A stretch of 31,192 nt of DNA, from the IMG/VR virus record IMGVR_UViG_3300047409_000506, positions 1-31,192 of that record. One strand, written 5' to 3'. A model generated the notes under the pieces. That model did no database searches. It was not told the DNA's origin and saw only the letters and a program-made list of their open reading frames with translations. Origin of the DNA: a virus. Numbering within the stretch: the stretch's first letter is position 1; every line of letters starts with the position of its first letter. Shown in pieces: positions 3,318 to 31,052 of the stretch. A program made the position numbers and the translations under genes.

Positions 3318-3665
3318 TTACGCGGCCTCCCCGGGTGGTTCGACGGACCCGACGCGCGCGGTCAGCGTGCGGCGCGCGGCGTTCACAAGGTCGGCGGTCT
3401 CGGTCACGGTCAGGGCGAGGCGCGGGTCGGACTGCTGGATCTCACGGGCCAGGCGCTCGGTGTCCAGTGGGACGGTCTCGAACAAGGGCGTCGTGACTCC
3501 GAATGTCGCGTCGCCGAGGTGCGCGCCGCGCGGGGTCGCGGCGATCGTGGCGGCGGAGGCCTTGCGCTCGGCGTTCGTGTCCTGCTCGAGGTCGCCGTAG
3601 GTGATGGTGCCGTCGGCGTTCGTGACGAACTGCAACGGCCAGGAGGGGGCGGGGAGCTCGGTCAT
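3318..3665 (-). CDS. gp25/gpW-like baseplate wedge protein
   Basis: The 115-residue protein contains TPRGAHLGDATFGVTT (about 44-59), the region where gp25-like proteins have the conserved turn before FG, followed by a helix with ERLAREIQQSDPRL. In contractile injection systems this lysozyme-fold protein nucleates sheath assembly at the baseplate. It lies between the spike/fibre and baseplate J genes, exactly as in P2 and PBSX. Its ATG overlaps the upstream stop by four bases (ATGA). Confidence 0.82.
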   Translation of the reverse strand: MTELPAPSWPLQFVTNADGTITYGDLEQDTNAERKASAATIAATPRGAHLGDATFGVTTPLFETVPLDTERLAREIQQSDPRLALTVTETADLVNAARRTLTARVGSVEPPGEAA

Positions 3666-5002
3666 CCGGTGGTGATCTGGCCGTAGGTGGGTGCGAGCGG
3701 CACGAGGCGCCCGAGGGCCGTGCCGGGCCAGGCGCCGGCCGCCTTGGGCCCCCAGAGCCGCAGCGATGCGGTGTCGAGGTAGATGGCGCCGTTGAAGCCG
3801 ACCCCGGCCGTGGGGGCGCCGGTGCCGGCGAGGAAGCCGGTGCCGAAGCGCGCGTCGTTGCCAGGGGCGGCCTGCTGCGCCCCGGTGCCGAGCGTGCGGC
3901 GGGAGCCCGTCCCGACGGCGGCGTCGGTGGCGAGGTTGAGCTTGGACTCGGCGATCGCCGCCGCCGCGTTGACGTCGGCGTCGACGATGACCCCTGCGGC
4001 GATCTGGGGCGAGGGGTAGGACCCGGACAGGTCCCCGGAGGCGGTGCCGGTCGGTGCCCGGGCGTCCGTGAACCGGGTGTCGTTGCCGGCCGCCGCCTGC
4101 AGGGCCCCGGTCCCGAGGGTTCGGCGAGACCCGGTCCCTGCAGCGGCGTCCGTGGCCAGATTCAACTTGGATTCGGCGATGGCCGCGGCGGCGTTGACGT
4201 CGGCGTCGATGATCACGCCGGCGGCGATCTGCGGGGCGGCGGCGGTGCCGGCCAGGTCCCCGGCGAGCTGGATCGAGCCCTTCGTCGTGGTCGTCGCGTC
4301 GGGGGCACCGGCTCCCGGGTTGCCCTGCGGGCCCTGCGGGCCGGTGAGGTTGTCGCGCAGCGTGTAGGTCGACGCGCCGGTCTTCTCGTAGATGTCGCCG
4401 TTGGCGTCGTTCTCGTACCAGTCGCCGACGGCCCCGAGCGCGCCGGCCGGGGCACCGGTGCCGGAGCGCCAGAGGCTGCCCTGCGGCCCTTGCGCACCCG
4501 TGTTGCCGGTGGCTCCCTGAGGGCCCGTGTTCCCGATCGGTCCCTGGCTGCCGGTGGCGCCCGTCGCGCCCGGGTTGCCCTGCGGCCCCTGGGAGCCGGT
4601 CGCGCCGGTGGCGCCGGTGGCGCCTTGCGGGCCGGTGGGACCGGGCACGGTCGACGCGGCGCCGGTCGCGCCCGTGGATCCGGTGTCGCCCTTGTCGCCC
4701 TTGGGCCCCGTGGGGCCGGGCGGCCCCTGCGGGCCGGCAGTACCGCCGCCGCCGGCGACGCCGCCGGGCACGACGGCGACGATCGGGTTGCCGTTGGAGT
4801 CGTGCAGCAGCGCGGTCGTGTCCCCGGCGGTCGGCGTGCCGCCCGCGGATGGCACGTCCGCGTACACCTGGTCGGACGGGAATCCGTCAATCGTGACCGA
4901 CACCGTGCCGCCACTGACCCCGTGGACCCTGGCGGCGACGATCGCGTTGTACGGCGTCTGGTTCGGGCCGGCCGGGTTGACGAGCTCCTCGATGCCGGCC
5001 AT
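3662..5002 (-). CDS. Baseplate spike/fibre protein with OB-like N-terminus, collagen repeats and duplicated fibre modules
   Basis: The 446-residue protein has four visible parts. Residues 1-85 are beta-rich (YNAIVAARVHGVSGGTVSV, then NPIVAVVPGG), like the OB-fold at the start of gp5/gpV spike proteins. Residues 88-177 are Gly-X-Y collagen repeats. Residues 178-232 hold a DWYEN/IYEKTG beta module seen in many collagen-type fibres and a short second Gly-X-Y run. Residues 248-386 are two copies of a 64-residue fibre module, ending in a short head with WGPKAAGAWPG. It sits between the hub and gp25 genes, the gpV position, so it may both cap the hub and project a fibre. The exact role is inference. 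The start shares a base with the hub stop (TGATG). Confidence 0.75.
   Translation of the reverse strand: MAGIEELVNPAGPNQTPYNAIVAARVHGVSGGTVSVTIDGFPSDQVYADVPSAGGTPTAGDTTALLHDSNGNPIVAVVPGGVAGGGGTAGPQGPPGPTGPKGDKGDTGSTGATGAASTVPGPTGPQGATGATGATGSQGPQGNPGATGATGSQGPIGNTGPQGATGNTGAQGPQGSLWRSGTGAPAGALGAVGDWYENDANGDIYEKTGASTYTLRDNLTGPQGPQGNPGAGAPDATTTTKGSIQLAGDLAGTAAAPQIAAGVIIDADVNAAAAIAESKLNLATDAAAGTGSRRTLGTGALQAAAGNDTRFTDARAPTGTASGDLSGSYPSPQIAAGVIVDADVNAAAAIAESKLNLATDAAVGTGSRRTLGTGAQQAAPGNDARFGTGFLAGTGAPTAGVGFNGAIYLDTASLRLWGPKAAGAWPGTALGRLVPLAPTYGQITTG
3845..4261 (-). repeat. Tandem fibre module, two copies of 64 codons (4070-4261 and 3845-4036)
   Basis: Spike residues 248-311 and 323-386 are near-identical copies, each with GDL(A/S)G, PQIAAGVI, ADVNAAAAIAESKLNLATDA and RRTLGTGA. 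They start 75 residues (225 bp) apart. At the DNA level many third positions differ while the protein is kept, so the duplication is not fresh and has been under selection for its protein sequence. Confidence 0.9.
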
Positions 5003-6972
5003 CAGGTGTCGGGCGGGTAGTCGGGGCGGACGAACCGGCCGCTGCTCTTCGCGCGGGTGAGACGGGCGACCTTGTTCGCGCTCGTGTTGCCCTCGATTGT
5101 CCCGACGCTGTCACCGGAGACCTTCTCGACGAGCGCGACGTGGTCGTTGCCGAAGGTCATGAGGTCACCGGGCTGCGGGGTGGCGCGGAACCCGCGGGTG
5201 TAGCCGTTGCTGCCGGCGGCGGCCCATGCGTTGATCTGCGCGACCGCCGCCGTGCGGCACTCGCGCGAGACGCCGCCCATGACGATCGCGGTCGTGGCGA
5301 AGATCGCGCACCACGGGGCGCCCTGCATCCCGAACTTCTGCTCGAGCGCGTCGAGCTCGCTGCCGCGGTTGTTGCCGAACTCCTCGGCGTAGTGGCCGAT
5401 CCGGCCGACGGCCCACGCGATCGCCTTCTTCGCCCCGCCGCTGCCCTCCGTGGCCGGGGTGCCGTCGCCGACCGCGACCGTGAACAGCTCGGGGGCCGGC
5501 TCCTTCTTCGGCTTGGTCGGCTTGACCAGCGTGACGTGCGCCGCCGCGGCGTTGAAGAGGTCGAAGGTGAACTCCTGGACGATCCAGCGGCCGTCGACGG
5601 GGCCCATGTTGTCGAGGTCGACGCACGAGCCGGGGAGGACGCCCCACGCGTTCGCGGACACGTCGAGCTCGCACTCCGCGACGAGCTTGCGATGGTCCCA
5701 CTCATACGCCGGGCGGGAGAGGAGCCCGTCGGCGTCGAAGCCGTCGAGGGCGAAGTCGGCGGCCTGCGCGATCAGGTAGTAGTCCGAGACGAAGTACACG
5801 ACGGCGCCGACGGCGAAGAACCGCCAGGCGACGTCGTCGGCGAGCCGGGTGGCGGCCTGCACGGTGTTCTCGGTCTGGCCGGGCATGCCGCGGGTGAAGC
5901 GGAAGCTCTTGACGCGGACGGCCTCGTGGGTGGAGGCGCCGCCATCCCCGCCGTTCCATTTGCTCACGATCGCGGCGGCCTCGTCGTGGGCCTGGTCGTA
6001 GCGGTCCGGGAACGCCGAGCCCTGCACCTGCTGGGCGACCCAGCCGGCGCTCTGGGAGGCGTTGGCGCGCGCGAGCGCGATCGCGCCGCCCTTCCCCGTG
6101 AACCCGCTCTTGAGGAACGCGCGCGCCGACTCGGCGACGTCCCGGGCCAGCTTCTCGCCGTGCAGCCCGACGCGCAGCTGCAGTATCCCCTCGGAGTCGG
6201 CGTCGCCGCCGGGGAGGTTGCGCATCCTGCTCTCGACGATGCACGCCTCGACGAGCGCCAGCGTCGCCTTCGGCAGGGCCTCCTCCTGGTCGGCGACGCC
6301 GAGGACGGTCGCGGCGTTGCGCATCTGGTCGGGGTCCGCCGTGATCCCGGCGATCTTGAAGCGGGCGCCCTTGTCGAACCCGGTGCTGCCGCCGGACGGC
6401 TTGACGTCCGGGAAGTCGGGGTGCGCGACCGGCTGCTTCTTGCCCTTCTCCGGGGCGTAGTAGACGAGGTCGCGGAGCTTGACCTCGCCGACCATCTTCT
6501 CGATGAACTGCGCCCGGGTCATGGCGTTGCGGGACGTCGCGAGGTGCGAGCGGTGCGCGCGCAACAGGGCCCAGACCTCGTCCTCGAACGTGAGCTCCAA
6601 TGTGGCGTCGTCGTTGCGGGCGGCCTTGGCGAGCCGGAAGCGCAGGCTGTCGATCGCCATACTGACCGAGTCGAGGCGGCCGTTGGCGTCGCGGTCCAGG
6701 AGGCCGGAGCGCTCGAGCTCCCAGTCCGGGTCGTGGATGCCGATCGTGAGGCTCGAGGCGCCCTCGATCGTGAGCGTCACCTGCGCGCTGACGAGACTGC
6801 CCCCGATGTCGAGCTTCGGCTTGCGCTTCCCGCGCGCGGGCTTCGCCAGTGATTGCAGGCTCAAGGTGTCGATGCGCTCGTTGTGCGACAGGTTCGCCTG
6901 CTGGGCCACCAACAAGGGCGGGTTCTTGACGAACTTCGCGAACGCGCGCTGGGAGCGGGAGGGATCGGGCAT
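5002..6972 (-). CDS. Baseplate hub (gpD/gp27-like) with internal lysozyme/SLT-like domain and C-terminal CHAP domain
   Basis: This 656-residue protein is mosaic. Residues 40-145 and about 350-490 look like two halves of a gpD/gp27-type hub barrel (DGRWIVQEFTFDLFNAAAAH is typical of its C-terminal half). Between them, about 235-340, is a lysozyme/transglycosylase-like domain: E247 in VESRMRN is the candidate acid, followed by GGDADSEGILQ and the AQQVQGSAFPDRYDQA tract known from actinophage tail lysins. After a linker, 515-656 form a CHAP domain with C555 (GAPWCAIFA), H611 (NDHVALVEKV) and E627/N629 (GTIEGNTS). The hub would anchor the spike and degrade peptidoglycan during entry. It abuts the LysM gene (TAGATG). 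Confidence 0.85.
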   Translation of the reverse strand: MPDPSRSQRAFAKFVKNPPLLVAQQANLSHNERIDTLSLQSLAKPARGKRKPKLDIGGSLVSAQVTLTIEGASSLTIGIHDPDWELERSGLLDRDANGRLDSVSMAIDSLRFRLAKAARNDDATLELTFEDEVWALLRAHRSHLATSRNAMTRAQFIEKMVGEVKLRDLVYYAPEKGKKQPVAHPDFPDVKPSGGSTGFDKGARFKIAGITADPDQMRNAATVLGVADQEEALPKATLALVEACIVESRMRNLPGGDADSEGILQLRVGLHGEKLARDVAESARAFLKSGFTGKGGAIALARANASQSAGWVAQQVQGSAFPDRYDQAHDEAAAIVSKWNGGDGGASTHEAVRVKSFRFTRGMPGQTENTVQAATRLADDVAWRFFAVGAVVYFVSDYYLIAQAADFALDGFDADGLLSRPAYEWDHRKLVAECELDVSANAWGVLPGSCVDLDNMGPVDGRWIVQEFTFDLFNAAAAHVTLVKPTKPKKEPAPELFTVAVGDGTPATEGSGGAKKAIAWAVGRIGHYAEEFGNNRGSELDALEQKFGMQGAPWCAIFATTAIVMGGVSRECRTAAVAQINAWAAAGSNGYTRGFRATPQPGDLMTFGNDHVALVEKVSGDSVGTIEGNTSANKVARLTRAKSSGRFVRPDYPPDT

Positions 6973-7671
6973 CTAGGGCATCCGCAGCAGCGCGCCCTGC
7001 CGGATCGAGCGGGGGTCGCGGAGGTTGTTGAGTTTCGCGATGTCGTTCCAGCGCGACGGGTCGCCGAGCTGTTTCGCGGCGATCGTGACGAGCGTGTCCC
7101 CCGTCTTCACGCGGTAGCGCTTCTTCGCCGGCTTGCGGGTCAGGAACTGGTTCGCGCTCAGCGACGACAGCCGCTCGTCGGCGACGAACTGCAGCAGCGA
7201 CACCGTCACGGTCTGGCGGTAGCGGTTCCCGGCGCTGTTGACGAGCACCTCGTCGGTGCTGTAGTCGATCCCGGCGATCACCCAGCGCGTCCCCGGGTCG
7301 CCGTGGAGGTCGTGCGGCATGACGCCGGCCGAGTCGACCTTCAGCACCGGAGGCTCGTCGCCCTTGCGCTTCGTCCCGCGGCCCGCCATCGCCTCCAGGC
7401 ACGCCAGCGGCGCCTCGACGCTCGAGCCGTCCGGGTCGTCGAAGAACAGCTCGAGGTCGACGCCGTAGGGCTCATGACCGGTCCAGTGCGTGATCCCGGT
7501 CCGGCCGGGCCGGTCGATGATGTTCCAGCCGCCGACGCCCTGTGTGACCTGCGGGAACGGGTCGCCGAGCTCGACGCGGACGGCGACGTCGGTGTCGTCC
7601 TCCGGGGTCATGCGCACCCAGCCGGGCGGCACCGCGTTGACCCACGCCTGCGGGCCGGAGGAAGGCGGCAT
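6973..7671 (-). CDS. LysM-domain baseplate/tail hub adaptor protein
   Basis: The 232-residue protein has a beta-rich N-terminal domain (about 1-165; YGVDLELFFDDPDG and RWVIAGIDYSTDEVLVN) resembling tail proteins of the XkdP/T4 gp53 type, and a C-terminal LysM domain (about 184-232; RYRVKTGDTLVTIAAKQLG, then NNLRDPRSIRQGALLRMP). In contractile tails such LysM proteins join the tape measure end of the tube to the baseplate hub. Gene order, directly before the hub, agrees. The start faces the plus-strand moron 44 bases away. Confidence 0.85.
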   Translation of the reverse strand: MPPSSGPQAWVNAVPPGWVRMTPEDDTDVAVRVELGDPFPQVTQGVGGWNIIDRPGRTGITHWTGHEPYGVDLELFFDDPDGSSVEAPLACLEAMAGRGTKRKGDEPPVLKVDSAGVMPHDLHGDPGTRWVIAGIDYSTDEVLVNSAGNRYRQTVTVSLLQFVADERLSSLSANQFLTRKPAKKRYRVKTGDTLVTIAAKQLGDPSRWNDIAKLNNLRDPRSIRQGALLRMP

Positions 7672-10730: not shown

Positions 10731-12179
10731 CTAGAGCACCTCCGCGATGCCGGTGTTGGTCAGGGCGATGATCACGAACCGGGCATTGGGCGCGATCTTC
10801 ATCGACACGGCCGCCTTGAGCTGCCGCCCCGCGATCGTGACCGGCGTGTTCACGCTCGGGCCGGTCTCGACCCGAAAGGCGTCGGCCGGCGTGTCCCCGT
10901 ACAGCGGCCCTTGGCTCGAGTCGACGTACTGGGTGAGGAACGAGCCGATGTCGCCGTTGAAGCCGGCGAGGCTGCCGCTCCCGGCGACGGGCTCGAACAG
11001 GTGCGCGCGGCCGATCGCCTCGAGGTTGGCGACGACGAACATGATGAAGCGGTTGGCGCCGGCGCCGACCCATTCGGGGTCGACGGTCCCGTCCACGGGG
11101 GTGACGTCGTCGTAGGGCATGGTCGCGGTGGAGAACTGCCGCATGACGGTGACGCCGGCGTCCGCCAGGGCGGAGCGCTCGGCGTCGGTGCGGCTGTACT
11201 TCACTGCCGTCGCGAAGTTGCTCGTCGCGCGCGGCCCGGCGACTGCCCGGTTCGGGGTGGAGCCGGGGGCGGCGTCGTTGACGGCGGCGCGGCCCATGAA
11301 CACCCCGGACGGCGGCACCGTGCGCTGGGTGCTCGTCCCGCTCCCGGGCGCGTAGAGCCACGGGTCGAGCAGGATGACGTGCCGGGCGAGCTCGCGCCCG
11401 AGCGCCCTCGTGCTCGCGGCGAGCGCGGTGACGTTCGTGTACGTCGGGGTGTCCGGCGCGTCGGCGACCGCCATCCGGTTCCTATCCCGGGCGTGCGTCG
11501 CGATCATCGTGTACGCCAGCTGCCGGCCGTCACCCGGCAGCGCCACCTGGCCGGGCCCGAGGTCCCGGGCGAAGCGATCCAGGGCGGCCTGGATCTGAAC
11601 GTCGGTGACGTTCACCCGGTCGTCGTTGCCCGACGCGAGCGCCACGGCCGGCGAGTCGGACAGGGCGCCGGAGCCGACCGGGGTGATGTCGATGTACTGC
11701 GACGAGGCGGTCGCCCACGCCTGCGCCGCGACGACGTCCGCGAGCGCGGGGCTGACCTCGACGATCGTGGCGCCGTCCTTGACGGTGATGACGCCGGAGG
11801 CGACGGCCACCGTGACCGTGTTGTAGCTGGCGCCGGGGCCCCTGGCGACGGCGGTGAACTTCGTGCCCGCGGCCGGGATCGCGGCGCTCGCCTTGACGGC
11901 GGCGGGGCCGGCCTTGCGTGACCAGAACAGGCGACTGCCGCCCTCGGCGAAGAACGCCTCCATGGCGTCGTACTCGGGGCCGTTGTAGCTCTGGCGGGTG
12001 CCGTAGCGGGCGTCGAAGTCGCCCTTGGACGTGATGACGTCGGTCGGCTTGAGGACCGCCGTGGTGCCCGCGCTGCCGCGGTCGGAGAGTCCGACGATGA
12101 ACGCGGTGCCGGTCGCCGAGGCGGGGGCGGGCGGCGTCGGCGCGTCGATGATGTTGATGGTGACGTCGGGGGCGGGCAT
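10731..12179 (-). CDS. Contractile tail sheath protein
   Basis: The 482-residue protein shows classic sheath features. An N-terminal beta strand with FIVGLSDRGSAGTTAVL (about 27-43) leads to DFDARYGTRQSYNGPEY and FFAEGGSRLFWSRKAG (75-90), where sheaths carry the conserved FF.NGG...Y..R block. The middle has ILLDPWLYAPG and VPPSGVFMGRAAVNDA, the family's PPSG..AG...R.D motif. The C-terminal 120 residues (RFIMFVVANLEAIGRAHLFE onward) form the conserved polymerisation domain. This gene defines the phage as contractile-tailed. The TAGATG junction at its start abuts a 58-residue gene. Confidence 0.93.
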   Translation of the reverse strand: MPAPDVTINIIDAPTPPAPASATGTAFIVGLSDRGSAGTTAVLKPTDVITSKGDFDARYGTRQSYNGPEYDAMEAFFAEGGSRLFWSRKAGPAAVKASAAIPAAGTKFTAVARGPGASYNTVTVAVASGVITVKDGATIVEVSPALADVVAAQAWATASSQYIDITPVGSGALSDSPAVALASGNDDRVNVTDVQIQAALDRFARDLGPGQVALPGDGRQLAYTMIATHARDRNRMAVADAPDTPTYTNVTALAASTRALGRELARHVILLDPWLYAPGSGTSTQRTVPPSGVFMGRAAVNDAAPGSTPNRAVAGPRATSNFATAVKYSRTDAERSALADAGVTVMRQFSTATMPYDDVTPVDGTVDPEWVGAGANRFIMFVVANLEAIGRAHLFEPVAGSGSLAGFNGDIGSFLTQYVDSSQGPLYGDTPADAFRVETGPSVNTPVTIAGRQLKAAVSMKIAPNARFVIIALTNTGIAEVL

Positions 12180-19912: not shown

Positions 19913-20683
19913 TTATGCGTATTCGGTCTGACCGAGGTACGCCGTCATCACATCAGCGAGACCGGCTGCGGCGATTGCTTCCAAGTACCCGAGCCACGTG
20001 TTGCAGCGGTGACACAGCACGCCGCGGACACATCGGCCGCATGAGTTGGGACCAGCACAGCACGCATGGCTGTGGTCGATCGTTGGCTTGCGTGCTCCGG
20101 CGCTGCGGGTTAGACGATGGCCACAGATACCGCACTTCAGGTCGGGGCCCAGCTTTATCCACTCGATCGCCGTATCGACGGGCACGTTGTGGACGTTGAA
20201 TTGGGCAAGCGTCAGCGGTGTACCGCCGGTGCAGCCGACACAGAAGCGCGACCACGCATCGGACATCAGGGTGCGAGCCGTGTGCCGTCGCGTAAGTGGC
20301 GTGTCGCAGCCGAGGCATCGCACGTTCTGGACGGACGGGCCGGTGAGAACGCCGTCGATGCAGGTGGCGTGCTCGGAGCAGTAGCCGGCGCCCGCTACAC
20401 GGCGGCGTGGGTTCGTGCAGTCCGGACGCTTGCATGTGTTTCGTTCTGCGAGATGTTCGGCGCACAGGCGGTAGCCCTTGAGTCTGACCGCGTCGCACTC
20501 GTCGGCGGCGCATGTCGCCTTCCGTCCGTGGGTGTGGGCCTCCACTCTCTTGGCGTCCCGGCAGCGGAGGCAACGGCACCCGTAGCGGTAGCCGGTGAGG
20601 CCGGCCAGTTGCGGATGTAGGCAGGTATCCGCGACATCGAACAGCAGTGACTGTCGGCCGTCGGTGGCAGGCTGGTGGGACAT
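19913..20683 (-). CDS. Endonuclease VII-type HNH nuclease with cysteine-rich N-terminus
   Basis: The 256-residue protein ends in a recombination endonuclease VII domain (about 180-240): CGICG (184-188), IDHSHACC (202-209), RCVRGVLCHRCN (217-228) and WLGYLE. The first 155 residues hold several Cys pairs (GCRCLRC, CAADECDAVR, CKRPDC, CLGCDT, FCVGCTGG) suggesting four or five zinc knuckles for DNA recognition. Such proteins resolve branched DNA or act as homing nucleases. The start at 20683 follows AGGAGA 12 bases upstream; an upstream in-frame extension lies in the hairpin region and is unlikely. Base composition is visibly less GC-rich than neighbouring genes, suggesting later acquisition. Confidence 0.82.
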   Translation of the reverse strand: MSHQPATDGRQSLLFDVADTCLHPQLAGLTGYRYGCRCLRCRDAKRVEAHTHGRKATCAADECDAVRLKGYRLCAEHLAERNTCKRPDCTNPRRRVAGAGYCSEHATCIDGVLTGPSVQNVRCLGCDTPLTRRHTARTLMSDAWSRFCVGCTGGTPLTLAQFNVHNVPVDTAIEWIKLGPDLKCGICGHRLTRSAGARKPTIDHSHACCAGPNSCGRCVRGVLCHRCNTWLGYLEAIAAAGLADVMTAYLGQTEYA

Positions 20684-20707
20684 GGGAGGTCTGATCTCCT
20701 GTGTCGA

Positions 20708-20736
20708 GGGCGGGCCGCAGGCAATGCGGTCCGCCC
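20708..20736. terminator. Hairpin in the leader of the HNH gene
   Basis: A 12-bp inverted repeat (gggcgggccgca at 20708-20719 and tgcggtccgccc at 20725-20736) has a five-base loop. It is fully paired with one G-U on the plus strand and has one mismatch on the minus strand. It lies in the 203-bp intergenic stretch 20684-20886, which otherwise shows no gene. It could be a terminator or a packaging or recombination landmark. Confidence 0.5.
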
Positions 20737-20866
20737 TTCGTATCAGCCGGATCGGACGTCGAGCGCCCCGAATCAAGGACGCAGAAGGGGTAAGGCTTTT
20801 CTGCGCCTGGGGGCACGCCCGGATCCCTGGTCCTCACAGGCCTCGGGTCGGCTTGGGCGCAACCCT

Positions 20867-21628: not shown

Positions 21629-21860
21629 TGAGGAACGCCTCGAGCTCGGCCCGGTCGAGCACGATGCGCTCGCCGTCGAGACGCGTGACGGTCAGGCTGT
21701 CGCCGTCCAGGCGCAGCAGCAGGTCCTCGATCTCGGGCGTGTGCTCGGGGCGACCGGCGACCTCGGCGGCGAGCACGATCTCCGATGGGAGCTGCTGTGG
21801 TCGATACCGTGCGTTAACTTCCACAGCAGTGTTCATCGGGGGTTTCGGGTCCTGATTCAC
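21621..21860 (-). CDS. Small protein downstream of integrase, function unknown
   Basis: The 79-residue product starts at a GTG overlapping the integrase stop (GTGA, 21857-21860). It contains LPSEIVLAAEVAGRPEHTPE and a strand-rich end LLRLDGDSLTVTRLDGERIV ending DRAELEAFLNA. The C-terminal half looks like a small beta hairpin plus helix. Tight coupling to the integrase suggests a related regulatory role such as directionality control, but no HTH is evident and this is speculative. A second start is the ATG at 21836. Confidence 0.65.
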   Translation of the reverse strand: MNQDPKPPMNTAVEVNARYRPQQLPSEIVLAAEVAGRPEHTPEIEDLLLRLDGDSLTVTRLDGERIVLDRAELEAFLNA

Positions 21861-22771
21861 GGCGTCGCCTCCTTGGGTTGCGGGACGGCGCCGAAGAACG
21901 AGAAGCCGTGCAGGCTGACGGCGAGCTCGTCGAGGGTCGGCGCGTCGGTGTAGCGCTGGGTGGTCGAGATGTCCGCGTGGCCGAGCAGCGCCTTGGCGAC
22001 GAGGATGCCGCCGTGGCGGGCGACGTAGGTCGAGAACAGGTGGCGCATCGAGTGCGGCGTCACGTGCACGCCGATGCCGGCGGCGATGCCGAGGTCGACG
22101 ACGCGCTTGTAGAGCGTGGTCGCGCCGATCGGCCTGGTCGTGTCGCGCATGATCCCGGGCACCGGGTGGCCGGCGGAGCGCTGGCCGGGGAGCACGTGCT
22201 CGTCGAGGCCGGTGAGCGTGAGGATCTCCTCGACGACCGGCTCGAGGTCTGCGATGACCGGCACCCAGCGCTCGCGGCCGCCCTTGGCGATGTCGGCGCT
22301 GACCCAGACGAACCCGGGCCGCGCGAAGTGCCGGCCGCGCAGGCCGCGCAGCTCGCCGGAGCGCAGGCCGGCGCAGCAGCCGAGGTGCACGAGCCACCGG
22401 TCTCTGCGCACGGGCCGTGAGGCGACGAGCAGCCGCGCGCCCTCCTCGCGGGTCAGCCGCGCGATCTGCGGCGGCTTGGGCCGCGTCTGGCGGACCATGT
22501 CGGCCGGGTTGGATTCCCGCAGGCCTTCGGTCATGGCCCAGCGGAAGAACGAGCGGTAGATGGCGTGCGCCTGGCGGCGGCTCTCGCCCTGCCAGCGGCC
22601 GAGCGCGCGCTGCAGATCCTTGCCGGTGACGGTGGCCGGGTCGCGGTCGTCGACGGCGGCGGCGAGGTGCTCGAGCTTTGAGCGGTAGACGCGCTCGGTC
22701 AGCGGCGAGTTGATTCTGCTCTCCGCCTTCCAGTCGGCGATGAAGCGCTCGACGGCCTCGGAGAGCGTCAT
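21857..22771 (-). CDS. int: Tyrosine site-specific integrase
   Basis: The 304-residue protein has an N-terminal SAM-like core-binding domain (about 1-95; TLSEAVERFIADWKAESR, then RSFFRWAMTEGLRESNPA) and a catalytic domain with all conserved residues: R137 (AGLRSGELRGL), K163 (IAKGGRERWVPV), H240 and R243 (TPHSMRHLFST), H265 (LLGHADISTTQ) and the nucleophile Y274 (QRYTD). It lacks the arm-binding domain of lambda integrase. It integrates and excises the prophage. The start overlaps the methyltransferase stop (ATGA) and lies 17 bases after a perfect dyad (22788-22819). An attP core next to it could not be identified. Confidence 0.93.
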   Translation of the reverse strand: MTLSEAVERFIADWKAESRINSPLTERVYRSKLEHLAAAVDDRDPATVTGKDLQRALGRWQGESRRQAHAIYRSFFRWAMTEGLRESNPADMVRQTRPKPPQIARLTREEGARLLVASRPVRRDRWLVHLGCCAGLRSGELRGLRGRHFARPGFVWVSADIAKGGRERWVPVIADLEPVVEEILTLTGLDEHVLPGQRSAGHPVPGIMRDTTRPIGATTLYKRVVDLGIAAGIGVHVTPHSMRHLFSTYVARHGGILVAKALLGHADISTTQRYTDAPTLDELAVSLHGFSFFGAVPQPKEATP

Positions 22772-25974: not shown

Positions 25975-26120
25975 GCTTCCTCCACGACCCGGATCGGCGG
26001 GCCCCAGACGTCGCCGGAGTCCTCGCGGAAGCAGACCTCGACGAGGCCGCTCTCCCAGAAGCGCACGAGCACGGTGCGGGCCTCGTTGACCCACAGCCGG
26101 TAGGGCATCGCGTCGATCAC
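25971..26120 (-). CDS. Small early protein (49 residues), function unknown
   Basis: The product starts at a GTG overlapping the upstream stop (GTGA at 26117-26120) and ends with an ATGA overlap into the RecT gene. It reads MIDAMPYRLWVNEARTVLVR and then WESGLVEVCFREDSGDVWGP, a small all-beta pattern. Coupling on both sides makes it very likely real. No family recognised. Confidence 0.68.
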   Translation of the reverse strand: MIDAMPYRLWVNEARTVLVRFWESGLVEVCFREDSGDVWGPPIRVVEEA

Positions 26121-26446
26121 CGGCACGCCCATTCGCCGCCCCGGCCCACGTGATGCATCCAGGCGGCGGCCAGGGCGTTCCAGCGGGCCGACCAGATCGA
26201 CCGGCGGGCATACGGCGTCGTCCGCCAGGTCGACGGGATGAACTGGAAGAGACCGGAGCTACCGCTCGAGGCGTTATAGGCCCCGGGGTTCATCCGGCTC
26301 TCGCACCAGGCCTTGCGCCTGAGCATCGCCTCCGAGACGTTCCAGCGGATCGCGGCCCGGTGGATGCACTGCTGCACCGAGCACGGGCCCTGCGCCCGCT
26401 CGGGGCTCGGGGCGATCAGGACGGCGACCGTCATCAGCAGGGTCAC
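26117..26446 (-). CDS. Secreted SLT/lysozyme-like protein in the early operon
   Basis: With a GTG start overlapping the upstream stop (GTGA, 26443-26446) the product is 109 residues. Residues 1-20 form a short hydrophobic signal-like segment (LLMTVAVLIAPSPERAQ). The rest is a minimal transglycosylase SLT/Rpf-like domain: MLRRKAWCESRMNPGAYN with E49 as candidate catalytic acid, SSGLFQFIPSTW and WNALAAAWMHHVG. Four Cys (C22, C27, C48, C108) could form disulfides outside the cell. Peptidoglycan enzymes are usually late genes; here it lies between a membrane protein and recombination genes, unlike the usual order. Wall remodelling in the lysogen or exclusion of other phages are hypotheses. Confidence 0.75.
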   Translation of the reverse strand: MTLLMTVAVLIAPSPERAQGPCSVQQCIHRAAIRWNVSEAMLRRKAWCESRMNPGAYNASSGSSGLFQFIPSTWRTTPYARRSIWSARWNALAAAWMHHVGRGGEWACR

Positions 26447-26640
26447 GGGTGCTCCTCCTCGTGGTAGACGGGCCACAGCCACTCGGGCGCCCCGGCGTGG
26501 CCGTTACGGGCGGCGAGCAGCGCTCGCAGCCGGTCGAGCTCGGCCTCCTGGCGGCGGCGCTCGCGGCGCTCCAGGGCGGCGAGCGCGATGGCGAAGAACG
26601 CCAGCAGCAGCGGGACGACGGTCAGGCCATCGACGGTCAT
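26443..26640 (-). CDS. Small membrane protein with charged helical tail
   Basis: The 65-residue product has one membrane segment (about 6-23; LTVVPLLLAFFAIALAAL) followed by a charged helix (ERRERRRQEAELDRLRAL) and a short tail. The positive-inside rule places the charged helix in the cytoplasm. Its ATG overlaps the upstream stop (ATGA) and its stop overlaps the secreted SLT-like gene, so the two envelope proteins are probably made together. Family not recognised. Confidence 0.65.
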   Translation of the reverse strand: MTVDGLTVVPLLLAFFAIALAALERRERRRQEAELDRLRALLAARNGHAGAPEWLWPVYHEEEHP

Positions 26641-29313: not shown

Positions 29314-30024
29314 CTACGGGATCGCGCACGCCGCGATCACGACCGGCCTCCCATTCGTATCGGTGACGGCGACCTGTGTCGGCGTCGTCCCGGCCGGGCA
29401 TGCTCCGCCGGGAGCGCCAGTCGGTCCGGCGGGTCCGGGGGGGCCCGCCGGACCCGTGGGCCCCGTCGCGCCTTTCGCCCCCGCCGGGCCGGCTGCGCCC
29501 CGTGCCCCCGTGGCACCGCCAGAGCCCGCGTCTCCCGCGCTGCCCGGTGGTCCCGCGGGTCCGGGGCCACCCTGAGCGCCGGGGCTCCCAGAGGCGCCGG
29601 GAGCGCCCGGGGCGCCGGTGGCGCCCTTCGCGCCGGTCTTCCCTCGTGGACCGGCTGGTCCGGTTTCGCCGGCCGGGCCGGGGTCGCCCTGGGCGCCGGG
29701 GTTGCCGGGGGCGCCGACGACGCCGTCCTTGCCGGGGACGCCGGGGAGGCCGTCCTCGCCCTTGAGGTAGCGGACGATGTCGTCGGACTGCGCCTTGACC
29801 TCGGTGGCCCGGTCCTGTGCCTGCTCGGTGCGGGCGTGCAGGTTGCTCAGCCCGATCGCGACGCCGAACCCGGCGAACGTCGCGAGCAGCGCGAGCGCCA
29901 GCCACGTCCACAGGAACCGGCGGCGGGTGCCGCGCGCCTGCTGTTCGATGGCGTCGACGCCGCGCGCGAGCAGGACGGTGGCCTCACCGTTCGCCTCCGG
30001 GGGGGAGCTGGTGGCGGCGGTCAT
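29314..30024 (-). CDS. Membrane-anchored collagen-like protein
   Basis: The 236-residue protein has a cytoplasmic N-terminus (1-36), one membrane helix (about 38-60; TWLALALLATFAGFGVAIGL), a short coiled-coil stalk (62-88; RTEQAQDRATEVKAQSDDIV) and about 115 residues of Gly-X-Y repeats (91-209). A small C-terminal head with two Cys (GGACPAGTTPTQ, AACAIP) ends it. The layout is that of a type II membrane, trimeric collagen-like protein exposed outside the membrane. It overlaps the upstream gene by 41 bases in a different frame. Function is unknown: spanin-like disruption, surface modification of lysogens or a virion component are all open. Confidence 0.75.
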   Translation of the reverse strand: MTAATSSPPEANGEATVLLARGVDAIEQQARGTRRRFLWTWLALALLATFAGFGVAIGLSNLHARTEQAQDRATEVKAQSDDIVRYLKGEDGLPGVPGKDGVVGAPGNPGAQGDPGPAGETGPAGPRGKTGAKGATGAPGAPGASGSPGAQGGPGPAGPPGSAGDAGSGGATGARGAAGPAGAKGATGPTGPAGPPGPAGPTGAPGGACPAGTTPTQVAVTDTNGRPVVIAACAIP

Positions 30025-30277: not shown

Positions 30278-30505
30278 CTATGGGCCCGGTCGTGTCAGGG
30301 TCTCGAGCTGCTCGTCGACCTTCGCGGTGGGCGTAACGAGCGGCCGGATCCCGAGCGCCGACACGAACGGCGCGGCGATCCCGACGATCGTCTGAGCGTC
30401 CCACTCGGCGCCGGAGAGCACGGCGAGCAGCGCGAGGACGACGCTCGCGACCAGGCCGATGAACACGGCCGGCTCGCGGTAGACCCGTTGCGCGATGACC
30501 TTCAC
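30278..30505 (-). CDS. Putative holin
   Basis: The 75-residue protein has VYREPAVFIGLVASVVLALL (first membrane helix, about 12-31) and a second hydrophobic segment (AQTIVGIAAPFVSALGIRPL, about 37-56), then a polar, charged tail (VTPTAKVDEQLETL). The pattern YREPA..IG...... then a second helix and R.LVTP is common among small actinophage holins near lysin genes. It would form the membrane lesion that lets the amidase out. GTG start overlapping the HNH stop (GTGA). Confidence 0.7.
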   Translation of the reverse strand: MKVIAQRVYREPAVFIGLVASVVLALLAVLSGAEWDAQTIVGIAAPFVSALGIRPLVTPTAKVDEQLETLTRPGP

Positions 30506-30972
30506 GCGCGCGCGTCCTTCCTGCGAGCGTGAGCCCGCCGCATTCCGTCAGTCCGACACGTACGACAGCGGCGGCTCCCGTCCTTTGCGACGTAAGTGTT
30601 GACCTCGTCGTAGGGGTGACCGTGCGGGCAGTGCGTCTCGTGGCCGTGTCCGCACGCGCGCCGGCCGCGCGCGAGGTTCTCGAGCCGAGAGACCACCTCA
30701 AGGTGGAGCGGATTGACGCAAGACGGCTCGCGGCAGAGATGATCGACTTCCGCCCCATCGGGGATCGTGCCGACCAGCATCTCGTAGGCCACGCGATGGG
30801 CCCTCAGCATCCTCCTCGTCTGCGGCCCGCTCTGGATGGTCCCGTAGCCGTCCTTGGTGCGATTCGCCGTCCAGATCCAGCAGCCCGCCGGCGACGTGCC
30901 TACGTCCACCTTGGCGAAGAACCGCTGCTCGAGCGGGACAGCGACAGACCCGTAGCCACGAGCGTCCTTCAC
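30502..30972 (-). CDS. HNH homing-type endonuclease within the lysis cassette
   Basis: From the GTG at 30972 (GTGA overlap with the tiny membrane peptide gene) the product is 156 residues. It has CWIWTANRTKDGYGTIQ, a beta segment with LRAHRVAYEMLVGTIPDGAE, then VDHLCREPSCVNPLHLEVVS, the classical HNH_3 core with H and N ligands. A C-terminal zinc cluster follows (ACGHGHETHCPHGHPY, CRTCRTDG). Such genes often insert as selfish elements. Its base composition is visibly less GC-rich in the C-terminal half. It separates the lysin from the holin. Confidence 0.82.
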   Translation of the reverse strand: MKDARGYGSVAVPLEQRFFAKVDVGTSPAGCWIWTANRTKDGYGTIQSGPQTRRMLRAHRVAYEMLVGTIPDGAEVDHLCREPSCVNPLHLEVVSRLENLARGRRACGHGHETHCPHGHPYDEVNTYVAKDGSRRCRTCRTDGMRRAHARRKDARA

Positions 30973-31052
30973 AGCGTGTGGACGACGTAGACGACGGCGA
31001 CGACGACGATCGCGATGTCGCGGCATACGGCGAGGAAGCTCGCGAGCGTCAC
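30969..31052 (-). CDS. Tiny membrane peptide (27 residues) coupled to lysin and HNH genes
   Basis: The GTG start overlaps the amidase stop and its own TGA overlaps the HNH start, both as GTGA. The product is MTLASFLAVCRDIAIVVVAV followed by VYVVHTL, a single membrane helix with one Cys and an Arg-Asp pair near its middle. Coupling on both sides strongly suggests real translation. A pinholin-like or regulatory role beside the lysin is possible; size alone does not prove it. Confidence 0.6.
   Translation of the reverse strand: MTLASFLAVCRDIAIVVVAVVYVVHTL

Follow-up and report, generated by a model that had tools for sequence, protein, structure and literature searches.

Can the hub of a contractile tail carry two different peptidoglycan hydrolases, one of them inside its own fold? 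The question is raised by a gene on IMG/VR virus record IMGVR_UViG_3300047409_000506, which was analysed in full (positions 1-31,192; 31,192 bases, GC 71.5%) and is called the window hereafter. The phage that carries this hub comes from soil and has a contractile tail. A sequence-only reading had described a tail hub split by a lysozyme/SLT-like domain and extended by a CHAP domain, and the residues it named were all found in their places (E247, GGDADSEGILQ at 255-265, SAFPDRYDQA at 319-328, C555, H611 and E627/N629). The reading frame starts with ATG at 6972, stops at 5002 on the minus strand and encodes 656 amino acids in a single open frame; the plus-strand frame of 5002-6972 is not the hub protein. 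Two fused genes or a frameshift were rejected, given one open frame and a domain order that recurs across dozens of contigs. The features of the locus are:

3662..5002, minus strand: presumed central spike, N-terminal domain and collagen-like repeats (Pfam Collagen, DUF5907; position after the hub)
5002..6972, minus strand: baseplate hub gene, hub / GH184-like lysozyme insert / hub / CHAP, 656 aa (ORF and synteny)
5005..5439, minus strand: CHAP domain at the C-terminus, residues ~512-656, preceded by a flexible linker (Pfam PF05257; 50% identical to a related phage's tape-measure CHAP)
5140..5142, minus strand: H611, CHAP general base (Pfam CHAP match 550-629)
5308..5310, minus strand: C555, CHAP nucleophile (same Pfam match)
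5467..5928, minus strand: second part of the hub fold, residues ~349-502 (AlphaFold2 pLDDT mostly 80-97; BLASTP Altadena gp20 E 7e-9)
5947..6366, minus strand: inserted GH184-like lysozyme domain, residues ~203-342 (AlphaFold2 pLDDT mostly 91-98; 8b2e TMt 0.75; profile vs 8b2h E 2e-16)
6232..6234, minus strand: E247, predicted catalytic acid, closing the second helix of the insert (aligns with KsGH184 Glu41; Glu in 52/55 hubs)
6367..6414, minus strand: flexible linker where the lysozyme domain is inserted, residues ~187-202 (pLDDT <50 at 188-196; insert-free homologues join here)
6415..6864, minus strand: first part of the hub fold, residues ~37-186 (AlphaFold2 pLDDT mostly 80-97; Foldseek 1wru, 1k28; BLASTP Cantare gp26)
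6973..7671, minus strand: LysM baseplate/tube-initiator-type protein, upstream neighbour of the hub (Pfam LysM E 5e-8; syntenic in isolate myophages)
10731..12179, minus strand: tail sheath of a contractile tail (phrog_23 E 2e-21; tblastn to Cantare and Gordonia sheaths)

The genes of the window follow the order sheath, tube, tape measure, LysM, hub, spike, gp25-like, J and I, an arrangement shared with four contractile phages from the hosts Arthrobacter, Brevibacterium and Gordonia, namely Altadena, Sicarius2, Cantare and ChisanaKitsune. Nearly all related contigs keep the LysM-hub-spike succession and the contractile-tail synteny. The N-terminal domain of the spike is presumed, from its sequence and position, to be an OB-fold. 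PHROG names had pointed to a tape measure protein or an endolysin at the hub gene, an identity that we rejected as those matches span the enzyme domains only. An amidase-type endolysin gene, separate from the hub, lies at 2-529 and is cut by the left edge of the contig; the genome may therefore exceed 31 kb, and contigs of relatives reach up to about 60 kb. The earlier description as a 31-kb contractile phage thus holds for the tail, given the phrog_23 sheath and the synteny, while the genome size is unproven with the contig ending inside the endolysin gene. A temperate lifestyle is probable, given a tyrosine integrase gene at 21857-22771 (minus strand, Pfam E 8e-19). Endonuclease genes of the HNH_3 homing type and of an endonuclease VII-like type were noted at 30502-31026 and 19913-20776 (minus strand), and a collagen-repeat protein with a membrane-like N-terminal segment is encoded outside the tail module (29314-30024, minus strand, Pfam Collagen E 1e-17). 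Distant from both lysis and tail genes, 26117-26482 (minus strand) encodes an SLT-type protein of 121 aa (Pfam SLT E 4e-7), which may have a signal sequence and is possibly a further glycan cutter.

Regarding the hub itself, the two halves gave no significant match in Pfam, PHROGs or NCBIfam. Single BLASTP comparisons with Cantare gp26, a hub of 285 residues, aligned residues 51-110 of the window protein with 18-77 (E 3e-5) and 366-472 with 154-263 (E 8e-4); the two blocks are spaced by 255 residues in the former vs 76 in Cantare. A match to Altadena gp20 covers residues 368-492 (E 7e-9). With tblastn the hub halves alone yielded one weak match (E 0.2), yet this match fell in Altadena's syntenic hub gene. 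An AlphaFold2 model built on 52 homologue rows reached a mean pLDDT of 79 (33 from the single sequence). The first 21 PDB matches of this model are all hubs or central spikes, with Mu gp44 on top (1wru, Foldseek E 1.5e-6) and T4 gp27 among them (1k28_D, E 8e-4), and the alignments cross the insert. The flanking halves thus form one hub fold, as the sequence-only reading had proposed, although its limits (residues 40-145 plus 350-490) are better drawn at about 37-186 and 349-502. Fold and gene position, the latter between tape measure/LysM and spike/gp25/J in the window, the isolates and the related contigs, are both those of a Mu gp44 / T4 gp27-type hub.

The domain between the halves follows the conserved motif CPEL..xQPIA (PEKGKKQPVA in the window protein, P0001) and is all-helical in the AlphaFold2 model. 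It superimposes on the GH184 muramidases 8b2e (TMt 0.75, rmsd 2.7, 26% identity) and 8b2h (TMt 0.70), and a profile of 35 insert sequences matches both (8b2h E 2e-16, 8b2e E 6e-13). Pfam, including SLT and SLT_3, gave no match in this middle domain, and tblastn linked it to lysozyme domains in the tape measures of Streptomyces phages and in Mycobacterium lysin A (E 2e-8 to 1e-5). The profile alignment pairs E247 with residue 41 of 8b2e, and in the model E247 ends the second helix of the insert (H234-248). In KsGH184, Glu41 is likewise located at the end of helix 2 and is essential by mutation (PMC10394673). The catalytic Glu is kept in 52 of the 55 insert-bearing hubs and Gln265 in 51, and E43, Q61, Q113 and Y121 (domain numbering) are invariant across the 35 insert sequences. 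A chance resemblance of E247 to lysozymes was rejected on the grounds of this invariance and the fold. Fold, profile match and aligned catalytic Glu together make a GH184-like muramidase, with predicted glycan-cutting chemistry, a well supported assignment. The lysozyme fold anticipated around E247 is therefore present, over about residues 203-342 rather than 235-340, whereas the SLT part of the earlier label fails for the window protein: it is GH184-like, and an SLT / GH23 lysozyme was rejected as Pfam SLT and SLT_3 do not match.

Behind a low-confidence linker (503-511) follows the CHAP domain, detected by Pfam PF05257 as expected (E 6.9e-8 when the entire chain is scanned, 2.5e-9 with its C-terminal piece; 33-38 bits vs a cut-off of 26) with C555 and H611 in place. 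Its model is poor (pLDDT 50-73, <50 at the end), as NlpC/P60 sequences dominate the underlying alignment. CHAP domains cut either amide or peptide bonds, and the window domain is a predicted amidase/endopeptidase by family membership. Glycan and peptide or amide cutting in one protein, as originally suggested, is thus supported by the match of E247 to Glu41 and by the CHAP family as a predicted activity. The window CHAP is the sole one among 60 hubs, and it is 50% identical to the tape-measure CHAP of a relative whose terminase is 58% identical; because of these two observations, sequence comparison suggests exchange of the domain between tape measure and hub, in either direction. In that related tape measure (L102:2420-6109, minus strand) a lysozyme-like stretch lies ahead of the CHAP domain.

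Relatives were collected by a terminase search and a subsequent record-wise search of IMG/VR, which gave 79 hub loci, 63 without near-duplicates, 60 of them alignable by length. We measured the insert as the spacing between two anchors, CPEL..xQPI and E.SW....RLA.EV.WR. In 51 of the 60 hubs the spacing is about 174-241 residues, a share inflated for GH184-like inserts as the search patterns lie partly in the insert (EACIVE) and partly in the hub. One of the 51, L157, carries an SLT-type insert, judged by motif reading and as the single SLT member of a Pfam survey, leaving 50 with GH184-like inserts. Five hubs (L140, L142, L144, L156, L161) have a spacing of 15-29 residues and join their halves directly at one conserved site. 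Two others (L134 and L136, spacing 147-150) carry SLT_3 at the insertion site (Pfam E 9e-17 and 6e-12), and among the hubs scanned singly with Pfam this domain was found in these two only. The remaining two, with a spacing of 404-413, carry tandem domains (L159:4824-7628 and L160:4881-7481); in both, Asp replaces the catalytic Glu in the domain that belongs to the window's family. L134 and L142, one filled with SLT_3 and one empty, are sisters (support 100/98) with 80% identity in the N-terminal and 70% in the C-terminal hub part and 85% in the C-terminal domain. A further hub (L116:5914-8976, IMGVR_UViG_3300049456_000051, the same record as L101 and L119) is interrupted in frame by a stretch resembling an intein, CLALDTPIPTPDGW...MIPTHN|T, which shows a weak Pfam Hom_end match (E 0.003) and is absent from the close relative L115.

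These data also bear on whether the insert is an enzyme at all. It might instead be a wedge that binds glycan, anchoring the hub in this way and leaving the cutting of the wall to the C-terminal domain, a reading we regard as improbable. The Asp of L159 and L160, together with their additional upstream domain, indicates that loss of catalysis may occur, and the second carboxylate of classical lysozymes is absent from the insert, as it is from GH184 (PMC10394673). However, the retained Glu and the four invariant residues described above argue against a mere wedge, and the site has been refilled by an SLT_3 lysozyme and not by a binding module.

At the C-terminus, NlpC/P60 domains (49 hubs), M15-like HxH domains (8) and the CHAP domain of the window phage (1) were distinguished by motif (DCS; HxxHxH) and, for NlpC/P60, by Pfam matches in 23 of 52; the M15-like label is tentative and drawn from the motif. 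On a hub tree built without the insert and C-terminal columns, the insert changed state at least 7 times and the C-terminal domain at least 6 times, counts that do not distinguish gain from loss. The branch of the window hub is long and its placement unsure. The insert of this hub is about 50-57% identical to those of relatives and the hub halves about 35%; the insert may change more slowly than the halves or may have been transferred. Because both inserts and C-terminal enzymes vary across the family, the hub has two sockets at which enzymes are exchanged, namely a loop of its second domain and the C-terminus. We further favour, with some reserve, the view that this large uncultivated contractile group shares a two-socket hub platform, in which the loop takes glycan cutters (GH184-like, SLT-type, tandem or none), the C-terminus takes peptide or amide cutters, and independent exchange fits the enzymes to the wall chemistry of the host.

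For the window protein itself we hold it very probable that a hub of the Mu gp44 / T4 gp27 type, from a contractile actinophage-like virus, carries both entry enzymes, the GH184-like muramidase in a loop and the C-terminal CHAP, and cuts the wall for DNA entry. While domain order, folds, catalytic-residue conservation and exchange at both sockets were observed, we infer trimer formation, catalysis, timing and the cooperation of the two enzymes as follows. The muramidase would sit in the loop of the hub's second domain and the CHAP domain on its flexible C-terminal linker. The hubs of Mu and T4 are trimers between tube and spike, and by analogy each tail tip would be expected to bear the muramidase and CHAP in three copies each. 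Contraction of the sheath would drive tube and hub into the wall, where the muramidase would cut glycan strands and CHAP the peptide or amide bonds at the same spot, so that DNA could enter through the resulting hole. Support for the role of the C-terminal domain comes from the baseplate hubs of two Bacillus myophages, Deep-Blue Gp189 and Vp4 Gp110, as lytic activity was measured for these hubs with C-terminal NlpC/P60 (PMC11406892).

The gp5 protein of T4 is split after assembly. Cleavage of this kind in the hub, freeing CHAP and/or the lysozyme, or a use of the protein in lysis from within, seems to us an unlikely alternative; the low-confidence linkers at 188-196 and 503-511 would suit it, but a separate amidase-type endolysin is encoded at 2-529, one cut cannot free the insert without opening the hub chain, and the C-terminal arrangement is conserved across the family. 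HydH5 of phage phiIPLA88 is reportedly a dual-domain virion hydrolase. That the window protein is an ordinary hydrolase of this or the phi29 gp13 kind, on a hub that is nothing special, is very improbable: two-enzyme virion proteins are already known (PMC9863714), but here both enzymes sit on the structural hub chain itself, one within its fold at a defined exchange site, so that as a full description this account is ruled out by the fold and stays true of function.

The hub with both enzymes in the chain was absent from 50,697 isolate phage records searched with tblastn, a search that can miss divergent proteins, and open-licence papers gave no report of a hub-inserted lysozyme. A BFVD protein of 683 residues (A0A6J5NGX5) may have the same architecture. 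No relatives emerged when P0001 was scanned singly against viral contigs and genome contigs, or the sheath against viral contigs, and pattern-based scans of genome contigs found no prophage copy, which is weak evidence of absence. The double arrangement had been called uncommon; this agrees with the isolates, where we found no example, but it is not a singleton, as insert plus C-terminal enzyme is the usual form in the uncultivated group, with the insert share biased upward by the search patterns. Precedents exist in one-enzyme C-terminal hubs, dual-enzyme virion proteins and the lysozyme of the T4 spike; the split hub with both enzymes and exchange at each position was found in neither the isolate records nor the open-licence papers searched. 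The most conserved part of the contractile tip thus tolerates whole enzymes within its fold, and the family offers natural occupied, refilled and empty versions of one insertion site, which become visible only through many uncultivated sequences. How entry enzymes are matched to the chemistry of the wall, and whether the cutting of glycan and of peptide has to go together, becomes testable in this way.

Compared with known systems, the insert shares with KsGH184 and TtGH184 (8b2e, 8b2h) the fold, Glu41 (E247) and the Gln and VQ..A.P.xY motifs, but these are secreted fungal enzymes and not virion proteins. The closest structure to GH184 is the lysozyme of phi29 gp13 (PMC10394673). Like the window protein, phi29 gp13 combines two wall hydrolases (lysozyme-like and endopeptidase) on one tail-tip protein, although it is a podovirus knob protein without hub fold and its endopeptidase belongs to another family. 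T4 also places a lysozyme on its central puncturing complex and its gp27 has a related hub fold (Foldseek), but its single enzyme is part of the spike gp5 and not of the hub. Deep-Blue Gp189 and Vp4 Gp110 are Mu gp44-like hubs with a C-terminal cysteine peptidase, in their case NlpC/P60; in contrast to the window protein they carry a single enzyme, and a lysozyme within the hub was not reported (PMC11406892). Altadena gp20 and Sicarius2 gp22 of Arthrobacter phages are syntenic hubs after a LysM gene with a C-terminal CHAP (Pfam E 3e-12), but with 441 aa they lack the inserted lysozyme. In Gordonia phage ChisanaKitsune one hub-like protein (gp47) bears a lysozyme of the same family and another (gp48) bears NlpC/P60; there the enzymes are divided between two adjacent genes (L005:22844-25565) and both are C-terminal, whereas the window phage carries them on one gene with one of them inserted.
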